Shown here: one piece after another, positions 2,438-5,853 of the stretch
How the letters are laid out: the number at the start of each line of letters is the position of its first letter
How positions within the stretch are numbered: position 1 is the stretch's first letter
Source: Sphingomonas segetis
GTDB lineage: Bacteria > Pseudomonadota > Alphaproteobacteria > Sphingomonadales > Sphingomonadaceae
Direction: 5' to 3'
Assembly (NCBI RefSeq): GCF_009720245.1
Contig: NZ_WJSQ01000008.1
Span: 1 to 34,556 of the forward strand
Length of the DNA: 34,556 nt
Notes under the pieces: generated by a model
The model's database searches: none
What the model saw: only the letters and a program-made list of their open reading frames with translations
What the model was told of the DNA's origin: nothing
Program-made: the position numbers and the translations under genes

Positions 2438-2484
2438 GCGTATCCCCATATATACGTCCTAAGGACGTATATATGGGGATACGC
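2438..2484. repeat. Perfect 22-bp-arm palindrome, copy 1 (AbiE operator candidate)
   Basis: Two perfectly complementary 22-nt arms (2438-2459 and 2463-2484) separated by TAA. The inner core ACGTCCTAAGGACGT is identical to that of the second palindrome 82 bp downstream, while the outer arm sequences differ. It lies 38 bp after the thiC stop. There is no T-tract after it, so it is not a typical intrinsic terminator, although an RNA hairpin could still protect or end the thiC transcript. AbiEi antitoxins are known to bind paired long inverted repeats in their own promoter, which makes an operator the preferred reading. Confidence 0.75.
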
Positions 2485-2488
2485 TCAC

Positions 2489-2534
2489 TTGTCAAGCATG
2501 TTCGTTTGACAACATGTACGCAGCGTCCTACCCT
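2489..2534 (+). promoter_or_regulatory. Putative abiE promoter between the palindromes
   Basis: TTGACA (2506-2511) followed after 17 nt by TACCCT (2529-2534) gives a plausible sigma-70 promoter whose -10 lies in the left arm of the second palindrome. The spacer between the two palindromes also holds a near-direct repeat, TTGTCAAGCATG (2489-2500) and TTGACAACATG (2506-2516). TTGTCAA read on the other strand is a second TTGACA, facing a TATATA (2468-2473) inside palindrome 1. A regulator bound to either palindrome would cover the promoter. This is inferred from sequence only. Confidence 0.4.
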
Positions 2535-2566
2535 CACGTCCTAAGGACGTGAGGGTAGGACGCTGC
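2520..2566. repeat. Perfect 22-bp-arm palindrome, copy 2 (AbiE operator candidate)
   Basis: Arms 2520-2541 and 2545-2566 are perfectly complementary around a TAA loop, with the same ACGTCCTAAGGACGT core as copy 1. The right arm ends at the base immediately before the ATG at 2567 and contains the AGGA (2557-2560) that would serve as Shine-Dalgarno for the first abiE gene. In a long transcript the hairpin would bury this site. In a transcript starting in the loop region it would be free. Confidence 0.75.
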
Positions 2567-3463
2567 ATGGAAACTGCCAAGCCATTTGTTGACCGCAAGC
2601 GGATGACGAACCTCGCCGAGGCGGTTGCAAACAAGCTACGCTCTGCGGGTCGGCCTGTCGTTGCCGATGTCGAGATCATTCGCGCAATGGAAGAAGTGTA
2701 TGGCGAAGGGAAAGTCCGATATTTACGCGGCGACCGACCTACTCTCGGGGCTTTCGATAGAACTCGATCAATTCTCAAGGCCGAAAAAATCATCGGCCGA
2801 GACGCCGATTATCGAAGATTTTGGCGCGTCAACACGGTTCCCGATCGTTCGGCCGATGAGATTGTTTGTCTGGTCGACCAGACCGTCTACATCTCTCATC
2901 TGTCCGCTATGCAAACATATGGCCTAACCAATCGACGGCCGACAGACCTATATCTCACTCGATCCGATGACGCATATTGGCGGACGACAAGGGCAGAAAT
3001 TCTTCAGCGTTCGCCGGAATACGATGAGTTTGGTTTCAAATTGCTAAGAACGCACCATCCGAGCTCAGTTCGCGGTAGGCGCCTATCAACGCTCTCAACG
3101 AAGTGCTTCGGGCGCTTCACACAATTGCGAAACTCGTTCGCGCGCATTTCCTCCATCGGGCAGACATTCTACGACATGCTTTCCAGCCCAGAGCTGTGCG
3201 GGGGAATGCCACACGTTTTGGACGTCTTCGAAGACCATGCACCCAAATATCTCGAAGAAATAATAGAAAACGTCGATGAGGGCGAAAGCCAAATCGTCAA
3301 GGTACGGGCCGGCTACATACTAGAGGAAAGACTTGGTGTACGAGACGGCAAAGTACAAAAGTGGACCTCATTTGCGCAGCGCGGCGGCAGTCGCATTCTC
3401 GATCCACAAAAGCCATTCAGCCCCGCGCATTCCGAAAAGTGGATGATCTCGATCAATGTCTGA
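2567..3463 (+). CDS. abiEi: AbiEi-like antitoxin / transcriptional autorepressor (type IV toxin-antitoxin)
   Basis: 298 residues from the ATG at 2567. An in-frame GTG at 2549 lies inside the palindrome and is less likely as the start. The N-terminal third resembles the winged-helix domain of AbiEi proteins, and the segment YISHLSAMQTYGLTNRRP matches the AbiEi signature in which a short 'SHLSAL..YGLT' strand-helix follows that domain. Family knowledge: AbiEi antitoxins neutralise AbiEii without stable binding to it and repress their own operon by binding inverted repeats. The two palindromes just upstream fit that role. The gene overlaps the toxin gene by 8 bp, so the two are probably translationally coupled. 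GC content and codon use are visibly lower than in the flanking genes, which suggests acquisition by transfer. Sequence similarity to characterised AbiEi is only moderate. Confidence 0.78.
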   Translation: METAKPFVDRKRMTNLAEAVANKLRSAGRPVVADVEIIRAMEEVYGEGKVRYLRGDRPTLGAFDRTRSILKAEKIIGRDADYRRFWRVNTVPDRSADEIVCLVDQTVYISHLSAMQTYGLTNRRPTDLYLTRSDDAYWRTTRAEILQRSPEYDEFGFKLLRTHHPSSVRGRRLSTLSTKCFGRFTQLRNSFARISSIGQTFYDMLSSPELCGGMPHVLDVFEDHAPKYLEEIIENVDEGESQIVKVRAGYILEERLGVRDGKVQKWTSFAQRGGSRILDPQKPFSPAHSEKWMISINV

Positions 3464-4352
3464 TCCGGAGAAACAGGAAGAAACACTAGAGGTCGACCTG
3501 ACTGAATGGAGTGCTGCGGCAGCTGGAGACCCGCAGGTCGAACGAGAACGGGAAGCCACTGAGGTGTTTCTCGCCGCGCTAGGCATGACGAAAACATGCC
3601 ACAATAAAATTTACCTCAAAGGAGGGATTCTCGTAGGAGCGATATACGCGAGCGGACGCAACACGGCCGACTTGGATTTTTCAACAACAAGCACGCCGGA
3701 CCTCAAATTCCCAGAGCGACTAAGTGACGAACTCGAAGAGGCGTTCCCTCGCGCCGCGGCGCAGCTAGGCTTTCCCGGACTTCGACTCAGAATGCAGTCA
3801 GTTAAGTTTCGTCCGCGTAAAAACAACTTCACCGAGTCTGATTTTCCCGCTGTCGAAGCGAAATTCGCGTACGCCTATGTTGGGTCCAAGCAGGAAGCAG
3901 GTCTCGACGCCGGTACGTGCGCTGATGTCTTATATGCAGACATCAGCTTCAATGAGCCAATATCGTGCGTTCAGTCGGTCAAAATGAAGGGCGTAGATGC
4001 AGAGATATTGGTTTATTCTCTGCATGACCTTGTTGCGGAAAAATTCAGAGCCCTTCTCCAGCAGGTGACGCGAGATCGTTACCGGAGGCAGGACGTTTTC
4101 GACCTCTACTACCTAATCAATAACGCCGACGTCGAATCCATCCCCAAGGCGTTACTGTTGCAAACGTTTCAAGAGAAATGCCGCTCCCGGGGCATCGAAC
4201 CGACGAAAACATCTCTGGAGAATGAGGAAGTCAGGCGGAGGGCGTCGAGCGAATGGGACACCCTCTTGCAGGAGGTCGATGAGCTCCCAAACTTCGAAAC
4301 TGCGTACCAGGCGGTCGTCGAACTTTACTATTCCCTGCCTTGGAAACACTGA
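3456..4352 (+). CDS. abiEii: AbiEii/AbiGii family nucleotidyltransferase toxin
   Basis: 298 residues. The nucleotidyltransferase fold signature is clear: LKGGILV at residues 54-60 followed by ADLDF at 71-75, the DxD metal-binding pair expected in this family. Further on, HDLVAEKFRALL and RDRYRRQDVFDLYYL match the conserved C-terminal motifs (a Lys, then Arg-x-x-Asp-x-x-Asp-Leu). AbiEii toxins of type IV systems are GTP-binding nucleotidyltransferases that arrest growth; homologues can cause abortive infection by phage. The start ATG at 3456 overlaps the end of the antitoxin gene. The gene is AT-richer than the flanks like its partner, and the next gene is an unrelated cupin, so the two-gene module ends here. 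The functional label rests on family motifs. Confidence 0.87.
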   Translation: MSDPEKQEETLEVDLTEWSAAAAGDPQVEREREATEVFLAALGMTKTCHNKIYLKGGILVGAIYASGRNTADLDFSTTSTPDLKFPERLSDELEEAFPRAAAQLGFPGLRLRMQSVKFRPRKNNFTESDFPAVEAKFAYAYVGSKQEAGLDAGTCADVLYADISFNEPISCVQSVKMKGVDAEILVYSLHDLVAEKFRALLQQVTRDRYRRQDVFDLYYLINNADVESIPKALLLQTFQEKCRSRGIEPTKTSLENEEVRRRASSEWDTLLQEVDELPNFETAYQAVVELYYSLPWKH

Positions 4353-5434: not shown

Positions 5435-5448
5435 AAAGTATGTACTTT
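5435..5448. promoter_or_regulatory. Small palindrome in divergent intergenic region
   Basis: AAAGTATGTACTTT is a perfect 6-bp inverted repeat around TG, in the 102-bp gap between the divergent yaiI-like gene and the DUF7662-like gene. It overlaps a second GTATGT copy just upstream (5426-5431). It could be an operator or part of a promoter. There is no other support. Confidence 0.2.
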
Positions 5449-5475
5449 TCGTCGGTTGAACACGGGAGCGCAGTA

Positions 5476-5853
5476 ATGCCCAAATACGATCGTTTAGGAG
5501 AGCATCTGTCCGGCCTTGGCCGGGATTCGAGCCGTACGTTCAGCTTCGATCGAATAGAAGCAATCCTCGGCTTCACCCTACCCAAGAGCGCGCGCACATA
5601 TCAGGCATGGTGGGCGAACCAGGTCGGCGGCGGCCATGTTCAAGCCAATGCATGGCTGGACGAGGGTTGGCGTACCGAGCAGCTGTCCCTCACGCGCCGT
5701 CAGGTGACCTTCACACCGGTGGCCATCCCACGAGCGCCAAAGGGCGCGCGCGGCTCCGCCTTGGCCGGACTGTCGATCGACGAAGCCAGGCGAGCGGTTG
5801 CACTCCGATATCGCGTCCGTCCCGAGCAAGTGGAAATCGCCGTTCGGACTTGA
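5476..5853 (+). CDS. Small DUF7662-like protein
   Basis: 125 residues from the ATG at 5476, preceded by GGGAGC at a 7-nt distance; an in-frame upstream ATG at 5440 lacks a ribosome binding site. The sequence begins MPKYDRLGEHLSGLG and contains FDRIEAILGFTLPKSAR and AWWANQVGGGHVQANAWLDEGW. This is the pattern of a small bacterial family that I recall as DUF7662: a short domain ending in a strand that reads 'GWR...V.L....VTF'. After it comes a tail of about 45 residues including LSIDEARRAVALRYRVRPEQVEI, which looks like a short helical add-on. The function is unknown. There is no signal peptide, so the protein should be cytoplasmic. Confidence 0.7.
   Translation: MPKYDRLGEHLSGLGRDSSRTFSFDRIEAILGFTLPKSARTYQAWWANQVGGGHVQANAWLDEGWRTEQLSLTRRQVTFTPVAIPRAPKGARGSALAGLSIDEARRAVALRYRVRPEQVEIAVRT

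Follow-up and report, generated by a model that had tools for sequence, protein, structure and literature searches.

The stretch of DNA analyzed here (the window) comprises 34,556 nt of Sphingomonas segetis (assembly GCF_009720245.1, contig NZ_WJSQ01000008.1, positions 1–34,556) and carries a two-gene abiE module. The abiEi gene (2567–3463, + strand), encoding a predicted antitoxin and repressor of 298 aa, is recognized by the PADLOC profile PDLC02237 (E = 1.1e-97). The toxin gene abiEii (3456–4352, + strand) lies directly downstream with an overlap of 8 bp, and its product, a predicted nucleotidyltransferase also of 298 aa, matches Pfam PF08843 (E = 5.9e-26) and PADLOC PDLC02306 (E = 6.8e-92). 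Neither product has an NCBIfam match; for AbiEi, the Pfam search and a PDB sequence search for a solved structure likewise gave no match. An AlphaFold2 model of AbiEi (pLDDT 89.6, alignment of 42 sequences) was matched by Foldseek to AbiEi of Streptococcus agalactiae (6y8q, E = 1.8e-5) and to Rv2827c (1zel, E = 5.4e-5), and structural comparison yielded Z scores of 12.6 over 240 residues for 1zel (rmsd 6.1) and 11.5 over 187 residues for 6y8q (rmsd 4.2), with the next row at 9.0. The modeled protein appears to combine the winged helix and C-terminal antitoxin domain of the AbiEi fold, although the winged-helix likeness of its N-terminal part (Z 8–9) may reflect only a common arrangement. By family and predicted fold, the gene pair is assigned to the AbiE operons (type IV toxin–antitoxin systems), with toxicity and neutralization being predicted activities. 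The thiC gene (559–2400) is located upstream on the same strand, and a small gene encoding a DUF7662 domain is found at 5440–5853.

The interval between thiC and abiEi contains two perfect 47-bp palindromes with a common core, which reproduces the main observation of the preliminary description of this DNA. The upstream palindrome, P1 (2438–2484; arms 2438–2460 and 2462–2484), and the promoter-proximal palindrome, P2 (2520–2566; arms 2520–2542 and 2544–2566), both predicted operators without an assigned strand, have arms of 23 nt that are 100% complementary and are separated by a single A, at 2461 in P1 and at 2543 in P2; the 22-bp arms around TAA described previously are the same object. Their centers are 82 bp apart, as had been given, and the 15-mer ACGTCCTAAGGACGT forms the core of both (2454–2468 in P1 and 2536–2550 in P2). 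Given that perfect 23-bp arms have a probability of about 4^-23 per center, 2 such palindromes within 130 bp are not due to chance. As single-stranded DNA, P1 folds with −24.7 kcal/mol (z −10.6) and P2 with −29.6 kcal/mol (z −11.5). Copies scattered in the genome away from abiE, which had been named as the sign of a repeat element, were not found: a search of the 2.85-Mb assembly (97% complete) for ACGTCCTAAGGACGT with at most 1 mismatch returned no site beyond P1 and P2. The end of P2 abuts the ATG of abiEi directly, and its right arm is likely the 5′ leader of that gene.

A promoter had been proposed between the palindromes, and this is correct for one of its elements: a putative −35 box with the perfect TTGACA (2506–2511, + strand) lies between them, starting 37 bp ahead of the P2 center, whereas the best −10 candidate at a 17-bp spacing, TACCCT (2529–2534, + strand), lies inside the left arm of P2. 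The latter, located from the sequence and from its position in relatives, has 3 of 6 consensus matches as counted by eye. The predicted abiE promoter of the window is weak by consensus. A scan of positions 2380–2620 for sigma-70 promoters and terminators returned nothing at the threshold used. On the opposite strand, a putative divergent promoter was read from the sequence, with TTGACA at 2490–2495 and TATACG at 2471–2466, the latter in the right arm of P1. A possible ribosome-binding site, AGGA (2557–2560, + strand), falls within the P2 right arm, with 6 nt between it and the ATG.

Palindromes upstream of related abiEi genes

Relatives of AbiEi were drawn from whole genomes, GTDB contigs (the best 80 of 183 relatives), and plasmids, and the region from 450 bp upstream to 60 bp inside the matched gene was searched for palindromes, defined as a CCTNAGG center with arms of at least 9 bp, a rule that admits some short or broken sites (arms of 10 bp in locus L061 and of 14 bp in L100). 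Palindrome counts, coupled change, substitution rates, −35 orientation, start-codon distances, and tblastn results were drawn from 113 loci, which include the locus of the window itself (L007) and near-duplicates (L005/L043, L006/L040, and L115/L116 are identical in the compared stretches, and the L091–L108 group is close); the pair statistics and the core-started test described below cover 87 loci, and the P1–P2 spacing 98 loci.

Palindromes of this kind occur upstream of abiEi in 104 of the 113 loci, with 72 loci having 2 and 32 having 1. Among the 9 remaining loci, 2 (L008 and L057) do contain palindromes that are long and perfect but differ at the center, 3 (L053, L076, and L103) have too little upstream sequence, 3 (L009, L125, and L126) belong to distant relatives, and L067 is truly devoid of a palindrome. 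A relative of AbiEii was identified by tblastn in 107 of the 113 loci. The titles of the records span alpha- and gammaproteobacteria, Rhodothermales, Acidobacteria, and Nitrospinae, and the plasmid loci include small elements of Escherichia coli and Klebsiella, of 4.7 and 5.4 kb. No AbiEi relative was confirmed in one scan of viral contigs, and the search of phages gave no match. The palindromes were also considered as a general trait of all AbiEi families, a generalization that we rejected: no palindrome reaching the applied score was found in 19 of 20 loci with weak matches to AbiEi profiles (L010–L029, 1.8–3.4 kb each, not all of which may be AbiEi), the other one, L018, having 1 hairpin with a mismatch. 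The proposal that the palindromes are operators of the AbiE module is supported by their position, their restriction to abiE in the S. segetis genome, and their presence in 104 of the 113 loci, whereas binding by AbiEi itself is a part that we infer.

The search brought up several further arrangements. L055 has an additional perfect palindrome of 51 bp, built on the core shared by the others, about 1,900 bp after the start of the AbiEi match. Upstream of the match in L009, a distant AbiEi-like locus, there are, at 69–201 bp, 2 perfect 28-bp palindromes and 1 with a single mismatch, which have another core (TATAGTATATATACTATA in the first 2). In the upstream regions of L070 and L073, the CCTNAGG palindrome has a perfect neighbor close by that is built around another center. 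An unrelated perfect 49-bp palindrome lies about 750 bp upstream of abiEi in L131, a small Acinetobacter plasmid. Downstream of abiEii, the enterobacterial plasmids L127 and L128 carry a gene for a PP2C-type phosphatase, and the Rhodobacterales plasmids L114–L116 one for an N-6 DNA methylase. L119, in which recombinase genes follow, has AbiEi and a palindrome, but a tblastn search with the toxin of the window identified no AbiEii there, and the locus may represent an orphan antitoxin.

The comparison also bears on the promoter. TTGAC starts 31–39 bp before the P2 center in 58 of 90 distinct P2 palindromes, with 16 matches in the 35 positions further left, which places the −10 element in the left arm and predicts a transcription start near the P2 center. 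By comparative position, the inverted repeats overlap the abiEi promoter, with the candidate −10 of the window being weak. In a subgroup (for example, L110–L112), a −10-like sequence was read by eye just left of P2, so that P2 would there be transcribed entirely. The 64 distinct P1 palindromes comprise 19 with a forward −35 box, 18 with a divergent one, as in the window, and 27 with neither; upstream palindromes with a −35 box of their own look like self-contained promoter–operator units. The centers of P1 and P2 are 82–130 bp apart in 60 of 63 two-palindrome loci and 34, 198, and 200 bp apart in the other 3, a range too wide for the helical phasing that the preliminary description had read from the 82-bp distance.

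Symmetry, sequence, and coupled change in the arms

Across the relatives, the core GTCCT-N-AGGAC is nearly fixed. Among 125 distinct arms (positions numbered outward from the center), positions 1–4 are invariant, positions 1–3 by definition, and position 5 is conserved at 0.94, whereas pairs 11–22 each hold at most 0.25 bits (125 distinct palindromes from 79 of the 87 loci). The pairing itself is nearly perfect: 2,785 arm pairs of the 125 palindromes include 1 wobble and 1 other mismatch. Because this count came from a palindrome finder, the test was redone starting from the 7-base core alone. For 143 CCTNAGG sites upstream of the 87 loci, the paired fraction was 0.95–0.98 over pairs 4–18 and fell further out to 0.85, 0.55, and 0.29 at pairs 21, 23, and 24, respectively; for 51 CCTNAGG sites elsewhere in these loci, it was 0.18–0.35. 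The arms thus end sharply at 22–23 bp, their length being 22 or 23 in 67 of the 125 palindromes. In 72 loci, pairs 6–19 were intact in 1,008 of 1,008 cases for the upstream and in 1,007 of 1,008 for the downstream palindromes, with pairs 6–9 being conditioned by the 9-bp arm rule. Palindromes with an altered center (L008, L046, L057, and L100) keep perfect arms of 22–27 bp. Exceptions are the broken site of L061, with 10-bp arms, and uncorrected mismatches in L077 and L080.

The sequence of the outer arms is scarcely shared even between the 2 palindromes of one locus. At pairs 16–22, P1 and P2 agree at 0.32 within a locus and at 0.29 between loci (permutation p = 0.08, 58 non-redundant loci), extending to the relatives the unlikeness of outer arms noted originally for the window. 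A half-site sequence common to the repeat ends, as in S. agalactiae, is therefore not seen, and one repressor would face 2 differing sites, each of them perfectly symmetric. Agreement is higher closer to the center (0.60 within versus 0.46 between loci at pairs 6–10, and 0.42 versus 0.28 at pairs 11–15), which suggests that some of the arm is read or that promoter elements are shared there. At pairs 17 and 20, certain bases are weakly preferred (p about 6e-4 each, uncorrected; 73 arms), a hint that protein may touch the DNA close to where the arms end, which could account for the constant length.

The preliminary description had proposed a comparison of related AbiE loci for covarying arms against a fixed core, and the outcome, in keeping with the core-started pairing, is strongly positive. 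Across 34 palindrome comparisons drawn from 20 pairs of closely related loci, 132 arm changes were matched on both sides and 18 were unmatched, with all of the latter at pair 20 or beyond. For instance, L091, L092, and L098, the coding DNA of which is 98.5%–99.3% identical and which have an identical 47-bp spacer, show matched differences at pairs 9, 11, and 20. In 11 locus pairs, 49 of 254 sites had changed in arm pairs from 11 outward, 124 of 447 in the spacer, and 5 of 220 in the inner pairs; matched change in the outer arms thus proceeds at about 0.7 of the spacer rate, which is near neutral, and nearly without intermediates. Both the 20 and the 11 locus pairs were chosen by hand from close relatives, with several from one clade and L105 used twice among the 11. 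Near-neutral matched change without intermediates fits copying of one arm from the other, whereas selection for compensating changes, acting on its own, would be expected to take longer and to leave mismatched pairs behind. The palindromes display near-perfect arms with coupled substitutions, as template-switched inverted repeats do.

The arms are not always neutral, being better kept than the spacer between L127 and L128 (1 of 21 arm pairs changed, compared with 10 of 29 spacer sites). Mismatches are present in populations, at pair 16 in L153 and at pair 19 in L154 (matched version in L128 and L159, for which the palindrome columns alone were used, as their unequal ends make total difference counts meaningless). 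The central base of the 125 distinct palindromes is T in 52, A in 51, C in 15, and G in 7, that is, A or T in 103. The plasmid pColG (L152) differs from L127 at a single position in 541 bp, a T-to-A change at the center of P1, and the A form over 89 bases is matched by 9 of 47 well-covered plasmid records, with 32 differing at 1 base and 6 at 2 (L127 and L152–L158 being those inspected base by base). Other center changes are T to G in L101/L113 and A to C in L105/L115. Flips between A and T are predicted by inversion of the spacer during template switching, but a bias toward A or T at the center would produce the same pattern. Occurrence at 2 places in one record was dropped as proof of a center flip, as L155 shows the same without a flip.

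Interpretation and comparison with known systems

We hold with moderate confidence that P1 and P2 are autoregulatory operators of AbiEi, each centered near a transcription start, with arms homogenized by hairpin template switching. AbiEi, probably as 2 copies per palindrome, would recognize the core GTCCTNAGGAC, with weaker preferences extending to about pair 20; on P2, it would cover the −10 region and the transcription start of the abiEi promoter and thereby block transcription, and P1 would be a second promoter–operator unit. The symmetry of the outer arms would not be read base by base but would arise from the DNA: upon replication, fold-back of the arms would let the polymerase switch template and copy one arm from the other (quasipalindrome correction), so that a mutation in a single arm would soon be erased or mirrored and the arms would drift in concert near the spacer rate, with selection maintaining the core and the overall length. 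We infer the binding, its stoichiometry, the repression, and template switching as the copier from these patterns and from precedent: AbiEi proteins bind inverted repeats at their own promoters (PMC7319586, PMC3985639, and PMC11062541, as far as their accessible text goes), homogenization of arms with spacer inversion has been described (accessible text of PMC8604942 and PMC8794818), and paired substitutions occur in perfect palindromes (accessible text of PMC6649704). Copying alone does not predict that the arms stop sharply at 22–23 bp or that this limit is maintained from phylum to phylum, and weak contacts at pairs 17–20 would be a partial answer.

That limit is the strongest point for an alternative to which we assign a low but appreciable probability, namely, that a DNA cruciform or single-strand hairpin of about 22 bp is itself functional, sensed by AbiEi or a host factor upon, for example, a change in supercoiling or the appearance of single strands of a plasmid or phage, with complementarity rather than sequence under selection. 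The uniform arm length, near-perfect pairing despite little sequence information, the perfect arms of the 4 loci with an altered center, and the strong single-strand folds of P1 and P2 would all be expected of it. However, the coupled change appears too fast for pair-by-pair selection, as a near-neutral concerted rate would be hard to reach through intermediates that are selected against. Outer pairs should matter little to a hairpin, yet pairs 16–18 are as perfect as the inner ones, and the AbiEi model, with its winged-helix-like N terminus, has no recognized structure-specific domain. A GC-rich core such as this one should, moreover, slow the extrusion of a cruciform. A fuller form of the same idea, which we regard as rather unlikely, is that the abiE promoter carries 2 DNA-structure switches, sites of about 45 bp selected for self-complementarity, in which a hairpin or cruciform of about 2 helical turns per arm is functional. 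It is equally doubtful that AbiEi or a host factor senses this structure, releasing the operon at, for instance, phage infection or plasmid transfer, while arm copying keeps the switch perfect.

The preliminary description also raised a double role of the palindromes as operator and RNA hairpin, the second half of which the comparison disfavors. In the form considered here, read-through RNA would fold P2 and hide the ribosome-binding site of abiEi, whereas the operon's own transcripts, starting at the P2 center, would stay open; the abiE cassette would thereby be insulated from read-through. We judge both this folding and the insulation improbable. The placement of AGGA in the P2 arm, downstream of thiC on the same strand, would suit it, as would the arm ends of relatives: with start codons picked by a simple rule, the gap between the promoter-proximal arm and the start codon is 0–10 nt in 57 of 104 loci, the two overlap in 12, and 42 have a motif resembling a ribosome-binding site within the arm. 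In 48 of these loci, on the other hand, no such motif was recognized, and in 14, it lies only outside the arm. The upstream palindrome is no less perfect despite its distance from the start codon, and more than 1 G–T pair in 2,785 would be expected of RNA stems. Against an RNA hairpin in the operon's own transcript stands the start predicted near the P2 center in 58 of 90 distinct palindromes. An RNA hairpin may still apply to the subgroup with a −10-like sequence left of P2.

A dimeric mode of binding had likewise been suggested from the symmetry of the sites. Two copies of AbiEi per palindrome are probable, but dimeric binding is insufficient alone: the stricter reading, in which both half-sites would be recognized along all 23 bp and this recognition alone would keep the symmetry, has little to recommend it, since the 2 sites of one locus differ in their outer arms nearly as much as those of different loci, whereas the halves of each site are identical. 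It would agree with the 23-bp inverted repeats of other AbiEi proteins (accessible text of PMC7319586 and PMC3985639) and with the partial likeness of P1 and P2 at pairs 6–15. A mobile or scattered repeat element, finally, is extremely improbable, the extra copy in L055, some 1.9 kb past the AbiEi start, notwithstanding, because the S. segetis genome has 2 sites, both at abiE, which rejects this reading for that genome unless the missing 3% or so carries copies, and because the 6 non-abiE core sites that were read, of 10 found in 8 abiE genomes, all have arms of only 5 bp. In addition to the L055 site, a control of 600 kb outside the upstream regions contained 7 long palindromes (4 perfect, 3 with 1 mismatch), too few for judging the general frequency of such sequences.

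Protein-binding sites are normally found by their conserved sequence, whereas the abiE sites mostly conserve exact symmetry instead, which is kept across phyla and turned over in matched pairs. If arm copying is the cause, the 125 distinct palindromes would be natural examples for measuring template-switch correction in bacteria, and operators would be able to evolve in concert; if structure is what is read, the promoter of a defense gene would respond to DNA shape. The small E. coli plasmid with the same arrangement makes the question of copying versus structure testable. Such abiE palindromes appear in no title or abstract start among the matches listed in the open-access literature, and neither "inverted repeat" nor "palindrom" occurs in the accessible main text of PMC8436566 and PMC7725324. 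The kind of operator is known; family-wide perfect arms of nearly free sequence that appear to evolve in concert were not found among the matches listed.

Among the closest known counterparts is the abiE operator of S. agalactiae (accessible text of PMC3985639), for which autorepression by AbiEi through 23-bp inverted repeats is established. This operator (IR1-N3-IR2) joins two inverted halves of 23 bp, as each palindrome of the window does, into a site of about 49 bp that covers the abiEi promoter, and it is bound by AbiEi, with the operon autorepressed, a role that for the window is a prediction. It differs in having 1 inverted pair rather than 2 palindromes, in the 4 mismatches between its 23-bp halves, the outermost 11 bp of which are identical, and in its printed sequence, which is without a central GTCCTNAGGAC; repeats resembling it are said there to occur upstream of other abiE loci. 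In Mycobacterium tuberculosis, where autoregulation by Rv2827c is established (accessible text of PMC7319586), 2 pairs of 23-bp inverted repeats precede the gene for the AbiEi-like antitoxin of Rv2827c–Rv2826c, but each pair has a 13-bp gap, compared with 1 nt in the window, and the 4 repeats are unequal in consensus match and affinity. With respect to the arms, the template-switched inverted repeats described in the accessible text of PMC8604942 and PMC8794818 are similar in that copying equalizes short arms, changes are paired, and short spacers are inverted; those cases concern yeast coding genes and RNA genes, whereas the present one is a bacterial operator family across phyla. The mitochondrial palindromes of Nematomorpha (accessible text of PMC6649704) likewise have perfect arms, paired substitutions in close relatives, and concerted evolution, but they reside in protein-coding genes and vary in length up to 284 bp, whereas the abiE palindromes are regulatory sites in which both the length and the core are nearly fixed.
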